Positions 18,984-64,000 of a stretch of 64,000 bases of DNA are shown here, piece by piece. Location of the stretch: the NCBI RefSeq assembly GCF_000772965.1, contig NZ_JPVQ01000004.1, positions 78,611 through 142,610 on the forward strand, written 5' to 3'. Position numbers and translations under genes: made by a program. Each line of letters opens with the position of its first letter. Position 1 is the stretch's first letter. The DNA is from Ureibacillus massiliensis 4400831 = CIP 108448 = CCUG 49529 (lineage in GTDB: Bacteria; Bacillota; Bacilli; Bacillales_A; Planococcaceae). The notes beneath the pieces were generated by a model that saw only the letters and a program-made list of their open reading frames with translations, ran no database searches and had not been told where the DNA came from.

Positions 18984-19040
18984 ATGTGATTTAAAATAAA
19001 GAAAAATTAGCAGCCGAGCGATGAAAAGATCCACGAAAAA

Positions 19041-19097
19041 CCCTTCACTAACATGAAAACCCTTCACTAACATGAAAACCCTTCACTAACATGAAAA
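19041..19097. repeat. Three exact 19-bp tandem repeats
   Basis: The unit CCCTTCACTAACATGAAAA occurs three times head to tail at 19041-19059, 19060-19078 and 19079-19097 with no mismatch. Partial matches lie on both sides. The array sits in the 260-base gap between hmoA and zupT, 50 bases upstream of a promoter. Confidence 0.95.
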
Positions 19098-19146
19098 CGC
19101 TTCAAAAGTTTTCCTTGTACATAATATATAACCCAAACTAAAAAAG

Positions 19147-58024: not shown

Positions 58025-58633
58025 TTATCTTCTGTTTCGCCAACGTATAATGTTTTTTGGAGTAAAGTAAACAAGCCCAATAATGAAACCTGTAGCTAAT
58101 CCTCCTAAATGACCCATAATATTAATGCCTGGTTGTAAAAAGGTTAAAATGACACTGATAATAATAATAGGCATAATGATTTGTTTTAACTGTGGCATTG
58201 TATGGCGGGTATAGTAAACTAACGCTGCAAATGCACCGAATACCCCATAGATTGCGCCACTTGCACCAACGCTTGTATATATACCGGGTTGGGTCATAAA
58301 TGTTAAAACGTTACCAAAAATACCTGCAAGCAAGTAGATTGTTAAAAAGCGAGCTTTACCTGCAATTTTTTCAAGCTCGGGTCCAAATAAAAACAACGAA
58401 AACATATTAAACAGTACATGTAGAAAACCAGCATGTATGAAGATAGAGGAAACAACTCGCCACCACTCACCATCGCCAATTAATGAATTAATACTTGCAC
58501 CATATATAAAAAACCTATATTCCATCCCTGGTAAAAGCATTAAAATATAAACAATTAGATTAATCGCAATGATGGAAGAAACAACTGGGTACAATTTAAT
58601 ATATTGCTTGAAACTTTCCCTTCTAATAAACAT
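58025..58633 (-). CDS. Rhomboid-family intramembrane serine protease
   Basis: The 202-residue protein has six predicted helices. WWRVVSSIFIHAGFLHVLFNMFSL is the rhomboid L1/helix 2 signature with His and Asn. The catalytic Ser lies in GASGAIYGVFGAF at about residue 124 and the catalytic His in NIMGHLGGLATGFIIG at about 174. This is the position of B. subtilis ydcA, which is also opposite ydbST. The substrate is unknown. GAGGTGG precedes the ATG. It is divergent from acpS across 65 bases. Confidence 0.93.
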   Translation of the reverse strand: MFIRRESFKQYIKLYPVVSSIIAINLIVYILMLLPGMEYRFFIYGASINSLIGDGEWWRVVSSIFIHAGFLHVLFNMFSLFLFGPELEKIAGKARFLTIYLLAGIFGNVLTFMTQPGIYTSVGASGAIYGVFGAFAALVYYTRHTMPQLKQIIMPIIIISVILTFLQPGINIMGHLGGLATGFIIGLVYFTPKNIIRWRNRR

Positions 58634-58698
58634 ATATCCACCTCAATTTATAACATCATTATACATTGTATTGATTAAAGATGAAAAGGAGAACCTTT

Positions 58699-59049
58699 AT
58701 GATTAAAGGAATCGGTTTAGATATTATAGAAATTGAAAGAATAAAAAAAGTAAATGAAAAGGAAAAGTTTAGAAATCGTATATTATCTAATCGTGAGCTT
58801 GATGTTTACAATAAATTATCAGAGCAAAGAAAAATTGAATATTTAGCTGGAAGATTTGCAGCGAAAGAAGCATATTCTAAAGCAAACGGTACTGGCATTA
58901 GAGAGGGTTGTGAATTTCATCAAATTGAAATACTAAATGACGAACTAGGGAAACCAACATTATATTTCAATCGTCAAATTGTTAAAGGTTTTGTTAGCAT
59001 CACACATTCCAAGGATTATGCTGCAGCTCAGGTTATATTAATGACTTAG
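58699..59049 (+). CDS. acpS: Holo-[acyl-carrier-protein] synthase
   Basis: This 116-residue enzyme transfers 4'-phosphopantetheine from CoA to apo-ACP. The Mg-site Asp is in IGLDIIEIERI at the N-terminus and the second signature is GRFAAKEAYSKANGTGI at about residue 55. SITHSKDYAAAQVI ends the protein. ATG 58699 has AAAGGAGA at a good distance; an upstream in-frame ATG (58681) precedes that site. It keeps the conserved Bacillus order acpS-ydcC-alr. Confidence 0.96.
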   Translation: MIKGIGLDIIEIERIKKVNEKEKFRNRILSNRELDVYNKLSEQRKIEYLAGRFAAKEAYSKANGTGIREGCEFHQIEILNDELGKPTLYFNRQIVKGFVSITHSKDYAAAQVILMT

Positions 59050-59155
59050 TTCTTAACCTAAGAGCAAATTGTCATATTGTCCAAAATTGATAGCATAAAG
59101 TTATTCAACCACTCATATATTTGTCGTATCGAGTGAAAGTAGAAAGGATGGAGTT

Positions 59156-60157
59156 TTGCGACAACGTGTAATTGCTTTTATCGTATTGTTGTTAAGTGTA
59201 CTTGTAATCGCGGCTTGTGGTAGTCAATCGAAGGAAGATGTGTTAAAGGATTTGAGCAACAAATGGACGAACGTCAAAGGTTATGAGTTAGATGCAACAA
59301 TGGAAATCAAAACAGGAAGTGAACCAAGAGTATACGATGTAAATGTTTGGCATACTCAACCAGATCTTTATCGAGTAAAGGTAACACAACAAGGTGAAGA
59401 CGTAACACAGATGATAATACGTAACAAAGAAGGCGTATTTGTCGTAACACCTTCACTCAGAAAAACGTACAAGTTCCAGAGTGAGTGGCCAAAACAAAAT
59501 AGCCAAGCATACCTCATTGGTGCTCTAGCTGAAGATTTATTAGCAGATCAAAATGTTGCAATGGAAGAAGATGAAAACAATTATGTATTCCAAGCAGCTA
59601 CTAGAAATAATCATAAAAGCGTAATGCCAACGCAAAAAATAACGGTAGATAAGAAAACAAAATTACCTACATCAGTCTCAGTTATGAACGAAGCTGGGGA
59701 AGAACAGCTGCTTATTACATTTAGCAAAATTGATTTAGGAATGGAACATAAGGAAGAAGAGTATGCGGTAGAAAAGTTTACTGAGGAATCAGGAGAAACT
59801 GGCGCAATTGAACCTCAAGAATTCCAAGTACATTATCCTAATTTACAATGGGAAGGTACTACATTAGTAGACGAGCAAACAATCGTTGAAGATGGTACGG
59901 AACGTGTTATTTTAACGTTCGAAGGAGACAAACCATTTACATTAATGGAACAACCAATAGCTTATGACGAAAATTCAACGGTTCCTGTATTTGCTCCCGG
60001 CGATCCAGCAGACTTAGGATTTACTATTGGTGCTATTACGGATAACTCAATTAGCTGGGAACGTGATGGGGTATCATTCTTCTTAGCCTCTGAAAGTTTA
60101 ACACGTGACGAGATGATGGAAGTAGCAGCTTCTGTAATCCCAGGAGAATTAAAATAA
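59156..60157 (+). CDS. ydcC: LolA-fold lipoprotein YdcC
   Basis: The 333-residue protein has a signal peptide and lipobox VIAAC (Cys21), then a LolA-like beta fold. The ELDATMEIKTGSEPRVYDVNVWH and YRVKVTQQGEDVTQMIIRN strands are typical, and the C-terminal half has MLxxGPF-type outer-fold strands of the YdcC family. It is annotated as sporulation-related in Bacillus; lipid binding at the membrane surface is plausible. The start is TTG 59156 with AAAGGATGGAG upstream. It lies between acpS and alr exactly as in B. subtilis. Confidence 0.88.
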   Translation: MRQRVIAFIVLLLSVLVIAACGSQSKEDVLKDLSNKWTNVKGYELDATMEIKTGSEPRVYDVNVWHTQPDLYRVKVTQQGEDVTQMIIRNKEGVFVVTPSLRKTYKFQSEWPKQNSQAYLIGALAEDLLADQNVAMEEDENNYVFQAATRNNHKSVMPTQKITVDKKTKLPTSVSVMNEAGEEQLLITFSKIDLGMEHKEEEYAVEKFTEESGETGAIEPQEFQVHYPNLQWEGTTLVDEQTIVEDGTERVILTFEGDKPFTLMEQPIAYDENSTVPVFAPGDPADLGFTIGAITDNSISWERDGVSFFLASESLTRDEMMEVAASVIPGELK

Positions 60158-60275
60158 GCATGTTGAATTGTACAGTTGGACGGGTATAATAATTAACAAA
60201 TGTTTTACAAAACTGAAAAATATAACGTACAAAAATTATTCTAGGTTTAGAATTAAGTAAAAGAGGGAAAAACAA

Positions 60276-61388
60276 ATGACAACACCACACTACCGTCCAA
60301 CTCATGCAATAATTGATTTAAATGCAATAAAAGAAAATGTTCGCCATTTAAAAGGATTTCTGCAACCAGAAGTACAAATAATGGCTGTTGTAAAAGCAAA
60401 TGCTTACGGACATGGAGATGTCGAAGTCGCAGGTGCTGCAATAGAGGCAGGAGCAACTATACTTGCTGTTGCAACACCCGATGAGGCTCTCCATCTTCGA
60501 AAGCATTTTCCTAATATTGATATTTTAGTACTTGGATATTCGCCGGTTACCTTTGCAAAGGTAGCGGCTGATGAAAATATTACTTTAACAGTATATTCTT
60601 CGGATTGGGTTAATAGCGTCCAATTTAACTCCGATAAGTTATTAAAATTACATATTAAAATCGATAGTGGTATGGGTAGAATTGGTGTAACAACTATTGA
60701 GGAACTTTTAACTCTATTTAGCGACATTAAAAAAACAAGTAATCTTATAGTAGATGGGATATTTACTCATTTTGCAACGGCAGACGAAGAAGATGAATCC
60801 TACTTTGAAAAACAGGTAGAAAAGTTTGAAAAGCTAGTCCAAATGTTACCGGAAAAGCCGCGAATCATACATGCTGCAAACACGGCAACTATGTTGATAA
60901 AGGATAAACATCTACAATATGATGCAGTGCGTTTCGGTATTTCAATGTATGGATTAGCACCTTCATCTTACGTAAAAGGTAAATTACCGTTTCCAATTAA
61001 ACAAGCGTTTTCATTAGAAACGGAGCTTGTTGCTGTAAAATTACTTCAAAAAGGTGAATCAGTTGGATATGGTGCAACCTTTACAGCAGAAGAACCAATG
61101 TATGTAGGTACACTACCTATAGGATATGCTGATGGTATGATTCGTAAATTAAGTGGGCAAGAAGTATTGATTGATGGGAAAAGAGTCCCTATAATCGGAA
61201 GAATTTGCATGGATCAATGTATGATTGCATTACCTAGTGCATATAATGTAGGTGAGAAAGTAATTTTAATTGGAAAACAAAATGAGGAAGAAATAACAAT
61301 CGATGAATGGGCAGCAAAAGTTGAAACTATAAACTATGAAATACCGTGTATTATAACAACTAGAGTGCCCCGAATCTATTACTCATAA
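60276..61388 (+). CDS. alr: Alanine racemase
   Basis: This 370-residue PLP enzyme makes D-alanine for Ddl and the wall. The PLP lysine lies in MAVVKANAYGHG at about residue 39, GMGRIGV near 130 is a typical barrel segment, and VRFGISMYGLAPS follows near 220. The catalytic Tyr is in SVGYGATF at about 265, and the end of the beta domain has IGRICMDQCMIALP. The start ATG 60276 has AGAGGGA upstream. Together with ddl and murF in this window it covers D-Ala production and incorporation. Confidence 0.95.
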   Translation: MTTPHYRPTHAIIDLNAIKENVRHLKGFLQPEVQIMAVVKANAYGHGDVEVAGAAIEAGATILAVATPDEALHLRKHFPNIDILVLGYSPVTFAKVAADENITLTVYSSDWVNSVQFNSDKLLKLHIKIDSGMGRIGVTTIEELLTLFSDIKKTSNLIVDGIFTHFATADEEDESYFEKQVEKFEKLVQMLPEKPRIIHAANTATMLIKDKHLQYDAVRFGISMYGLAPSSYVKGKLPFPIKQAFSLETELVAVKLLQKGESVGYGATFTAEEPMYVGTLPIGYADGMIRKLSGQEVLIDGKRVPIIGRICMDQCMIALPSAYNVGEKVILIGKQNEEEITIDEWAAKVETINYEIPCIITTRVPRIYYS

Positions 61389-61463
61389 CAATATAATCCG
61401 ACAAAAATCTCCAATAAAAACCACTACAATCACAAGAATTGTCACATTATAAAATATCTTGTC

Positions 61464-61492
61464 TTTTCAACTACTATTTTCGATGATAGAAT
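61464..61492 (+). promoter_or_regulatory. Candidate promoter of ndoAI-ndoA
   Basis: TTTTCA (61464-61469) and TAGAAT (61487-61492) are spaced 17 bp. Both hexamers are only moderate matches. Confidence 0.4.
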
Positions 61493-61533
61493 AGGTAGAA
61501 GAAACGGTATGGTTTTTGTGGAGGTGCTTGTTT

Positions 61534-61821
61534 TTGTACGCGAAAAAAGCTGATGAGTTAAAAGAAATCGAATATTCTCTTCCTCAAGAGATGTTAATAG
61601 AGTTTAATCAAACACTTGAGCAAAAATTTGCGCGCAAGGAAGAGTATGTTATCGTTGCGACACGTAGATTATCAACGCACAAGCAACCAAATCAAATACG
61701 GGAAGCTTTAATGAAAGGCTATGTGGAAATGTCACAAATTAATTTGTCAATTTGTAGTGAATGTCTACATGCGGAGTATGAAGCAGAGCATATGGTGGAG
61801 CGTCTCGTAAGCGGGGGATGA
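61534..61821 (+). CDS. ndoAI: Antitoxin EndoAI (MazE-like, ribbon-helix-helix)
   Basis: This 95-residue antitoxin matches B. subtilis EndoAI best at its C-terminal half (GYVEMSQINLSICSE and the exact ending VERLVSGG), which wraps the toxin. The N-terminal RHH region (EIEYSLPQEMLIEFNQTL) is more divergent and is longer in the loop. TTG 61534 lies eight bases after GGAGGTG; upstream in-frame TTGs overlap that site. The toxin gene starts four bases after the stop, the usual coupling. It represses its own operon in related systems (known for the family, not shown here). Confidence 0.88.
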   Translation: MYAKKADELKEIEYSLPQEMLIEFNQTLEQKFARKEEYVIVATRRLSTHKQPNQIREALMKGYVEMSQINLSICSECLHAEYEAEHMVERLVSGG

Positions 61822-61824
61822 AAT

Positions 61825-62175
61825 TTGATTGTGAAACGAGGGGACGTTTTTTTTGCAGATCTATCACCAGTGGTAGGTTCTGAACAAGGTGGAACAAGAC
61901 CCGTATTAATCATTCAGAATGATATAGGAAATCGATTCAGTCCTACAGTAATTATCGCTGCGATTACTGCGCAAATTCAAAAAGCAAAATTACCAACCCA
62001 TGTTGAAATAGATGCCAAAAAGTATGGGTTTGAACGAAATTCGGTAATTTTGCTTGAACAATTGCGTACAATTGATAAATCCAGACTAACCGACCGGATT
62101 ACTCAATTAGATGAAGAATTAATGGATAAAGTGGACGAAGCCTTAGAAATAAGTTTAGGATTAATGAAATTTTGA
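61825..62175 (+). CDS. ndoA: Endoribonuclease toxin EndoA (MazF)
   Basis: This 116-residue MazF toxin is nearly the textbook Bacillus EndoA, an RNase that cuts at UACAU. It reads [19 protein letters not shown] at the N-terminus, with [17 protein letters not shown] as the catalytic loop and [18 protein letters not shown] next. The family's conserved Arg (about 25) and the Thr/Ser after NRFSPT are present, so the toxin looks active. It starts at TTG 61825 with GGGGGAT upstream. A strong terminator follows directly and separates it from rsbT. Confidence 0.95.
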
Positions 62176-62186
62176 ATACATAATTT

Positions 62187-62228
62187 AAAAAAGAGTATCG
62201 AAAACAAAAGTTTTCGATGCTCTTTTCA
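62187..62228 (+). terminator. Rho-independent terminator after ndoA
   Basis: AAAAGAGTATCGAAAAC pairs with GTTTTCGATGCTCTTTT (17 bp, one G-U) across a tetraloop. Confidence 0.93.
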
Positions 62229-62257
62229 TTATCATTGTTATTAAAATAAAATTATAA

Positions 62258-62286
62258 TTACTTTGTTACAATTATTAGAATATAAT
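62258..62286 (+). promoter_or_regulatory. Candidate SigA promoter of rsbT-rsbU
   Basis: TTACTT (62258-62263) and TATAAT (62281-62286) are spaced 17 bp, 113 bases before the rsbT start. No SigB-type GTTTAA/GGGTAT pair is visible. Confidence 0.6.
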
Positions 62287-62398
62287 TACAATAAATAGAA
62301 AGTATATAAACCTTATTGGTTTTGCCGATAACAAATAATAGAATTATATAAAAAGTTAAATAAATTTGATAAAAACCTTATGATTTGGGGGTGCAGTT

Positions 62399-62806
62399 GT
62401 GACAGAAATAATAACTATAGATATTAAAACGGAATGGGATATAATCACTGCACGCCAATTTGCTAGAAAAATAGCTAAATCAATCGGATTCGATGTAGTG
62501 GATCAAGCGCGAATCGCAACTGCAATAGGAGAATTAGCAAAAAATATTTTCTTGTATGCAGAAATTGGACAGATTGAAATTGAAAAAATTGACAATGAAG
62601 ATCTAAATTTAAAAGGAATATGTATAATAGCTAAGGATAGCGGGCCAGGTATTGCTGACATTAAAAGCGTATTAGGTGAAAATTCTCCAGAAGGTATAGG
62701 AGCTGGTATACCTGGAGTAAAAAGACTTATGGATAATATGGATATTACTTCAGAAGTAGGAAGAGGAACAAAAATTAGAGTAGAAAAATGGTTAAGAATG
62801 GGGTGA
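62399..62806 (+). CDS. rsbT: Stress-switch serine kinase RsbT
   Basis: The 135-residue GHKL-type kinase matches Bacillus RsbT throughout. TEWDIITARQFARKIAKSIGF is the N-terminal helix, DQARIATAIGELAKNIFLYA contains the N box, AKDSGPGIADI is the G1 box, and GAGIPGVKRLMDNM is the G2 segment. In B. subtilis RsbT is held by the RsbR-RsbS stressosome and, when freed, activates RsbU. The start is GTG 62399 with GGGGGTG upstream. The expected rsbR and rsbS are missing between ndoA and this gene. rsbU follows after six bases. Confidence 0.93.
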   Translation: MTEIITIDIKTEWDIITARQFARKIAKSIGFDVVDQARIATAIGELAKNIFLYAEIGQIEIEKIDNEDLNLKGICIIAKDSGPGIADIKSVLGENSPEGIGAGIPGVKRLMDNMDITSEVGRGTKIRVEKWLRMG

Positions 62807-62812
62807 TATATT

Positions 62813-63811
62813 GTGCAACAATTATTAATTCAATATAAACAAATCTTATCCGATTATATTGCAAATAGACAGGAACAGAATTTATATGTAGGACAAAATT
62901 ATGTTCGACAGCTAATGAAAAAAAATGTAGCACCTGAAGATGTAATCAATATTCATAAAAAAGCCATTGAAGAAATCTATGATGATTTACCGGAAAAGCT
63001 ATCTTATGCTTACGAATTCCTCATCGAAGTGATGGTGCAATTTGGACTTAAATTTCGTGAACACCAAAGTCTTTTAATCAAACAAGAAGAATTGAGAATT
63101 GAGATGGATATTGCTACAAGAATCCAAAATCACTTACTAAAAACAACTGTACCACAAATAGAATCTTTAGATATTGGAATGTTATCTATTCCATTAAGGC
63201 AAATGAATGGAGATTGTGTTTATTGCTTTTTATATGATAAAAAAGATTACTTAAGTTTTGCAGTAACAGATGTTGTAGGAAAAGGAGTTCCTGCGGCTTT
63301 ATGTATGTCCATGGTTAAAAATGGATTGGAAACACTTGAGTATGCTAACAATAATCCATCACACGTTTTAGAAGTATTAAACCGAATCATTGAGAAAAGT
63401 GTTGATGACAGTATGTTTGTTTCATCATTTTATGGCCGATATGATTTAGCTAATGATGTATTAACATATGGTTCAGCGGGACATGAACCTGGACTATATT
63501 TCCGTGCTAGTGATGAATCATTCCACGATTTAGAAAGTAAAGGATTATTATTGGGTGTACTTCCAGAGGTAAAATATCCTCAATTTGATATCCAGCTAAA
63601 GGAAAATGATTTTGTTGTAATCATGACTGACGGGGTAACAGAAATAAGAGATATAGAAGTCAATGAATCTCGGAATATTATTAAAGAGATTACCTATTTG
63701 CACCGTCATCTTTCTGCGCAAGAAATATGTGAAAAGGTCTATTCAGAGTTACAAAAATTACAAGATTATGCTATGAAGGATGATTTTACAATATTTATTT
63801 TAAAGAAATAA
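62813..63811 (+). CDS. rsbU: PP2C-type phosphatase RsbU
   Basis: This 332-residue protein has an N-terminal RsbT-binding four-helix domain (about 1-85), a short coiled linker (RIEMDIATRIQNHLLK) and a SpoIIE/PP2C phosphatase domain. Metal and active-site segments are MNGDCVYCFLYD (the Asp), VTDVVGKGVPAALCMSMVKN, GSAGHEPGLYF and VIMTDGVTEIRD. It dephosphorylates RsbV to release SigB. GTG 62813 has GGGGTGAT upstream. It looks intact, but its substrate gene directly behind is broken. Confidence 0.93.
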   Translation: MQQLLIQYKQILSDYIANRQEQNLYVGQNYVRQLMKKNVAPEDVINIHKKAIEEIYDDLPEKLSYAYEFLIEVMVQFGLKFREHQSLLIKQEELRIEMDIATRIQNHLLKTTVPQIESLDIGMLSIPLRQMNGDCVYCFLYDKKDYLSFAVTDVVGKGVPAALCMSMVKNGLETLEYANNNPSHVLEVLNRIIEKSVDDSMFVSSFYGRYDLANDVLTYGSAGHEPGLYFRASDESFHDLESKGLLLGVLPEVKYPQFDIQLKENDFVVIMTDGVTEIRDIEVNESRNIIKEITYLHRHLSAQEICEKVYSELQKLQDYAMKDDFTIFILKK

Positions 63812-63870
63812 TTTTTATAGTTTTAAAAAAGAAAAAAAGGGAATTGAGTTATATTCAAACTGGAGGTGTG

Positions 63871-64000
63871 GTGAATTTGGAAGTAAATATTCATGTAAGA
63901 GAACAAGGTTAAATATTCATGTAAGAGAACAAGGTAATTTAATGATTATTTACTCAAACTTCGCACATAAATAATTAGGTTCAATAGTTGATGCTATTTG
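63871..64000 (+). pseudogene. rsbV: rsbV, disrupted start (26-bp duplication and divergent continuation)
   Basis: A TGGAGGTG site (63861-63868) is followed by GTG 63871 (or TTG 63877) and the codons NLEVNIHVREQG, an RsbV-like first strand, then a TAA at 63910-63912. A perfect 26-bp tandem copy (63884-63909 and 63910-63935) causes the shift. After the second copy the frame would continue GNLMII, plausible for the anti-anti-sigma factor, but then it runs YSNFAHK and a stop with no GEIDxYTAP motif. The rest to 64000 does not resemble RsbV, so a further insertion near 63950 is likely. Only the first codons are in the window. Confidence 0.6.
63884..63935. repeat. Perfect 26-bp tandem duplication in rsbV
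   Basis: The 26-bp unit starting TAAATATTCATGTAAG occurs twice without a gap (63884-63909 and 63910-63935). Because 26 is not a multiple of 3 it shifts the frame, and the second copy supplies an in-frame TAA. Confidence 0.95.

Follow-up and report, generated by a model that had tools for sequence, protein, structure and literature searches.

The window, by which we mean the whole stretch of 64,000 nucleotides analysed here, stops where contig C94 of the draft genome (156 contigs, 4.0 Mb) stops. Its last kilobases hold genes which we take to be those for alanine racemase (alr) and an ndoA-type toxin-antitoxin pair, followed by rsbT, rsbU and the start of rsbV. The features of this region are:

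62399..62806, + strand: rsbT, 135 aa, intact open reading frame; HATPase_c_2 match over the cut-off; named by its place before rsbU and by locus comparison
62813..63811, + strand: rsbU, 332 aa, intact open reading frame; RsbU_N and SpoIIE domains over their cut-offs
63820..63844, + strand: predicted SigB-type promoter GTTTTA-N13-GGGAAT, upstream of rsbV (pattern match)
63862..63866, + strand: GGAGG, ribosome-binding site of rsbV (read from the sequence)
63877..63912, + strand: 5' piece of rsbV with TTG start, 11 codons and a TAA that comes from the duplication (by translation)
63884..63909, + strand: first copy of the 26-bp unit, which is single in the relative G248 (direct sequence comparison)
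63910..63935, + strand: second copy of the 26-bp unit (direct sequence comparison)
63946..63952, + strand: left copy of the 7-bp target repeat TTATTTA; the right copy lies directly 3' of the right end of the insertion sequence on contig C152
63953..64000 (contig end), + strand: left end of an IS4-family insertion sequence (IS) with terminal repeat CTCAAACTTCGCA; its first 44 bases are without mismatch (44/44) against the ends of contigs C104 and C108

The rsbU product would dephosphorylate RsbV. A loose form of the SigB-promoter motif was found in 45 of 57 related loci, as against a mean of 0.5 and a maximum of 4 in 200 mononucleotide shuffles.

Just inside rsbV, the two tandem copies of the 26-bp unit agree at all 26 positions (26/26), as the sequence-only reading had claimed when it called rsbV apparently inactivated by an exact tandem duplication. 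The bases flanking the unit differ between both copies, so that the junction of the duplication is without microhomology. As 26 is not a multiple of 3, the rsbV frame is lost: from the TTG at 63877 it reads LEVNIHVREQG and then meets the TAA at 63910-63912. The same reading had counted 13 codons before this stop, which holds if rsbV starts at the GTG at 63871 but not for the TTG start, with its 11 codons. We prefer the TTG, because RsbV of Ureibacillus manganicus, the closest named relative, begins MELNIHFRKESN, the MELNIH of which was aligned by eye to the rsbV of the window. In its own frame, the second copy encodes NIHVREQGNLMIIY and then runs into the IS, from which it is separated by 17 bp.

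The mobile element that had been suspected to start near position 63950 does indeed start there, with an IS end at 63953. This left end is identical at 41 of 48 positions to a related full copy in contig C115; this copy is 1530 bp long, has 13-bp perfect terminal repeats and encodes a transposase of 453 aa that scores 591.5 bits against the NCBIfam IS4 model NF049925 (cut-off 250). Contig C152 terminates in the opposite end of the element (46/46 identical to C107, 45/46 to C115), where the transposase C-terminus, the only transposase part seen of the rsbV copy, runs through the terminal repeat and is followed by TTATTTA, the rest of rsbV, rsbW and sigB. The transposase is directed towards rsbW-sigB, ends ...NYIKAYLSILVCEV and has its stop codon inside the terminal repeat. 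The inverted repeats are thus accounted for at 63953 and, as reverse complement, on C152, and TTATTTA flanks both IS ends in rsbV, on the C94 side and on the C152 side. Other insertions of the same IS have their own 7-bp target repeats (TAAAATT at C115, TAATTAA at C104/C107). The element resembles IS4-family insertion sequences in its transposase score above the cut-off, its terminal repeats and its A+T-only 7-bp target repeats; we noticed no unusual trait in it, the rsbV copy being known from its two ends alone. An IS match was present in 138 plasmid records; the matches listed were Enterococcus faecium plasmids, at 64%, and had no annotated feature beneath the match.

What lies beyond position 64000, where the sequence-only reading had advised looking, is hence found on C152: the opposite IS end, the remainder of rsbV, and intact rsbW and sigB genes that score over their family cut-offs. 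The alternative of a complete rsbV further right was not borne out, C152 carrying rsbV only from just before GEID. This fragment has a STAS domain (67.3 bits for PF01740, cut-off 22.6; 78.7 bits for TIGR00377, cut-off 53.45), with matches that start only at profile position 17 or 20. The DSTGLG motif, within which we take the phosphorylated serine S56 of Bacillus subtilis RsbV to lie, is retained in it. The GEIDxYTAP strand had earlier been taken for the phosphorylation site, which was mistaken, S56 being the site in the B. subtilis protein according to PMC7522486. By position, the gene sits between rsbU and rsbW-sigB, with the 5' piece in the window and the 3' piece on C152, and the order rsbU-rsbV-rsbW-sigB is common to the related loci. 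A single open frame across RsbV is absent, with a stop after 11 codons and the halves on two IS-ended contigs.

A scan of the genome found STAS domains at six places including rsbV. Of the other five, one adjoins a SpoIIAB-like gene, two are part of long frames (611 and 484 aa), and two are short proteins on contig C78, in a neighbourhood of another kind; none of these five stands out as a second RsbV, the C78 pair being candidates only. On C78 (L184 3873-9070) we observed a separate cluster of genes that presumably encode a HAMP-like membrane protein, a STAS protein, a PP2C-type phosphatase, a FapA-like protein and another STAS protein; the profile search of contigs gave no match to an RsbW-like kinase on this contig.

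Because the halves of rsbV sit on contigs with opposite IS ends and matching 7-bp repeats, we infer that a single IS of about 1.5 kb, oriented along the operon, connects C94 to C152. The assembly would have broken at the IS repeat, and the transposase would be read in the direction of the operon. We are rather confident of the overall picture, in which the duplication ends the rsbV frame, one IS lies most likely inside rsbV and RsbV is probably not made.

Are these lesions old? The close relative G248 is 97% identical to the window over 58600-63909 (5.3 kb); it carries the 26-bp unit and TTATTTA only once each and has no IS, continuing instead with LEVNIHVREQGNLMIIYIMGEIDT, such that its rsbV frame is open to codon 24; this comparison covers the readable part only, since 8,500 N follow from just inside rsbV onward. 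As G248 has one unit and no IS in that part, both rsbV lesions look derived, and judging from this alignment both probably arose after the split from G248. Among 25 genomes of the genus, G248 is the only one without a match over the SigB cut-off, and its RsbV match is weak. A loss of its whole SigB operon was considered and rejected as unfounded, because the rsbW/sigB region there would fall within these masked bases. Relative to G248, rsbT has 1 synonymous and 0 nonsynonymous changes and rsbU 5 and 4, which are too few for a selection test. Divergence from G248 is unequal along 59156-63811: of the synonymous sites, 42 of 247 differ in alr and 38 of 211 in the preceding gene, as against 1 of 79 for ndoA, 1 of 88 for rsbT and 5 of 200 for rsbU; the rsb region may have been exchanged recently between the two lineages.

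The main competing explanation holds that the assembly went wrong close to the contig end and created the duplication, the IS alone being real; rsbV would still be broken in that case. We give this a minor, though appreciable, chance. It draws on the position of the duplication, which ends 65 bp from the contig end with the blunt junction described above, on the single unit in G248, and on the fact that 8 exact tandem repeats were listed, 3 of which are no more than 150 bp away from a contig end. The contig ends themselves argue otherwise. Counted from the outer end, 48 pairs of them share an overlap of 49 bp, 24 pairs one of 48 bp and 4 pairs one of 46 bp, and the end of C94 fits a 49-bp overlap against both C104 and C108, which fits an assembly of the de Bruijn type with k near 50. 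With such a k, k-mers that span the 26-bp tandem unit would be necessary, unless the unit was made by subsequent gap closing, and the 49-bp overlaps are an argument against an unmerged overlap at the duplication. A further candidate, that an appended read makes up the final 91 bp of the contig, was dropped, because the 49- and 48-bp overlaps (72 of the 76 end pairs) mark a de Bruijn assembly and C94 fits at 49. Of 169 contig ends fetched, 74 were N and 95 usable, and among these 95 readable ends no other blunt tandem repeat was found within 150 bp of the end, the rsbV repeat being the only blunt one; this speaks weakly against a systematic artefact. Exact tandem repeats with a unit of at least 20 bp number 3 in the 811,813 bases fetched, of which 55,662 read N, namely the rsbV duplication, one at the extreme end of contig C110 and one with a 103-bp unit in C78. 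No exact tandem duplication of at least 12 bp occurs in the rsbU-rsbV region of any of the 57 related loci (0/57) or in the readable part of G248. From the assembled contigs, we consider the 26-bp duplication probably real. Elsewhere in the window, at 19037-19098, an exact 19-bp unit is present in about three tandem copies.

Less probable is a different join, in which C94 and C152 are not linked by a single IS and the rsbV halves are separated by a larger element with two IS copies or by recombination between IS copies. Further copies of the same IS do exist elsewhere in the genome, the body of the rsbV copy is absent from the assembled sequence read, and for the left end on C108 no right-end partner was found among the IS ends detected. 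Against this, the flanks on C94 and C152 have the 7-bp target repeat in common and their remaining frames continue RsbV as in G248, while C104 and C107 pair through a target repeat of their own. We consider this arrangement unlikely, and retain a single IS within rsbV. As an observation apart, the IS end on C108 (L006 1-1135) interrupts a GerAC-type spore germination gene in its 3' part, so that PF25198 is whole and PF05504 is matched up to position 144 of 167.

With regard to function, it is reported for B. subtilis that RsbW holds SigB until dephosphorylated RsbV replaces SigB (PMC7522486 and PMC9847131). Following this scheme, RsbW should keep SigB where RsbV is absent: nothing would displace SigB from RsbW, SigB would stay bound, and the general stress response would be off or very low. 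In addition, the IS would come to lie between rsbW-sigB and the SigB promoter predicted upstream of rsbV, and thereby cut the positive feedback. After a first lesion, the second could have been neutral, and either order would be possible. The inhibitor RsbW probably keeps SigB inactive. Perhaps SigB is not fully off, since its activation independent of RsbV has been reported at low temperature (PMC9847131) and in an rpsU mutant of Listeria (PMC10977602). Loss of rsbV may also be costly in some relatives, because attempts to delete it failed in Geobacillus kaustophilus (PMC8024623).

The sequence-only reading had left a choice between a broken and a rewired SigB switch. The first is the likely one, and the second found no positive evidence. 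A rewired switch would require that readthrough from the IS supplies rsbW-sigB together with a shortened RsbV of 89 aa from an ATG after the IS. Consistent with this, the transposase points towards rsbW-sigB with its stop in the terminal repeat, and within about 20 bases an in-frame ATG begins a STAS fragment of 89 aa in which DSTGLG is retained. However, this fragment does not cover positions 1-16 of the Pfam STAS model, a GGAGG-like site before its ATG is absent, and a crude sigma-70 scan of the right end of the IS found no outward promoter, so that we hold this explanation to be very improbable. Least credible of all is its extension to a stress response driven by the IS and switchable by mutation rather than by signals, in which SigB would be out of RsbV control, the IS would drive rsbW-sigB and the shortened RsbV, and the 26-bp unit would contract and expand.

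A broken rsbV with a probably silent SigB, as preferred here, is a case of a known kind, the natural loss of a SigB regulator, and as such an ordinary gene loss. That one small gene bears two lesions so close together is unusual, yet no new mechanism is called for. Among the natural rsbU mutants of Staphylococcus aureus are an IS256 insertion and an 11-nt deletion with frameshift, and a SigB marker was lowered in 4 of 6 rsbU mutants (PMC4949386). They are alike in that sigB is kept but one of its positive regulators is broken by an IS or a small frameshift; they differ in that there the gene was rsbU, the element IS256 and the SigB output measured, whereas here rsbV carries two lesions, one of them an IS4-family element, seen from sequence alone. 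Listeria monocytogenes readily gathers mutations in its sigB operon (PMC13068326). The likeness consists in sequential mutations within one sigB operon that alter SigB activity; in Listeria, however, they concern rsbX, rsbU and rsbW and were selected in isolates and cultures, while the present case is the gene content of one genome. A survey of 106 Bacillales genomes found rsbV and rsbW in every species with sigB (PMC9847131); its main text holds no mention of Lysinibacillus, Planococc- or Sporosarcina. Among the papers listed in our literature searches, none dealt with a broken rsbV in the Ureibacillus-related group.

The genome studied here has rsbT, rsbU, rsbW and sigB intact and rsbV hit twice, and G248 has an intact 5' part of rsbV. 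If confirmed, this pair would offer a natural test of SigB without RsbV, and also of whether selection in the group favours losing the stress switch. The case would also be a warning that the presence of sigB does not prove a functional sigB.

Is the interruption of rsbV common among relatives? Judged by RsbU, U. manganicus is the closest named relative (76%), and further species of Ureibacillus, Lysinibacillus and Solibacillus come next, which marks the strain as a Ureibacillus-like bacterium. In 56 of the 57 related loci rsbV follows rsbU uninterrupted. The 57th, L071 from the complete genome of Sporosarcina thermotolerans CCUG 53480, has an apparent frameshift near the rsbV start (L071 5991-6160), which would be either a second natural break or a sequencing error. 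Within the genus, RsbV is matched over almost its whole length and without a stop in 23 of the 24 other genomes; the exception is G248, where the sequence is masked beyond codon 24. Within the family, 259 of 261 genomes have an RsbV match at E 0.001 or better; the matches listed include weak ones, which may be paralogues.

Finally, the related loci differ around the core of the operon. In the window (62176-62398), rsbT lies directly 3' of ndoA with no space for rsbR and rsbS, and likewise in L024-L045 and L047. Of the 57 related loci, 23 (from Ureibacillus, Lysinibacillus, Solibacillus and their kin) have an ndoA-rsbT gap below 800 bp and 33 (from Planococcus, Sporosarcina and their kin) one of 1.35-1.46 kb, with 1 unmeasurable. 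Downstream, sigB and a tex-like gene leave no space for rsbX on L019 (3820 and below); this gap measures some 80-480 bp in those 23 loci where rsbR-rsbS have no room, and mostly at least 650 bp in the others. From these spacings, one clade may be running RsbT-RsbU without stressosome proteins.
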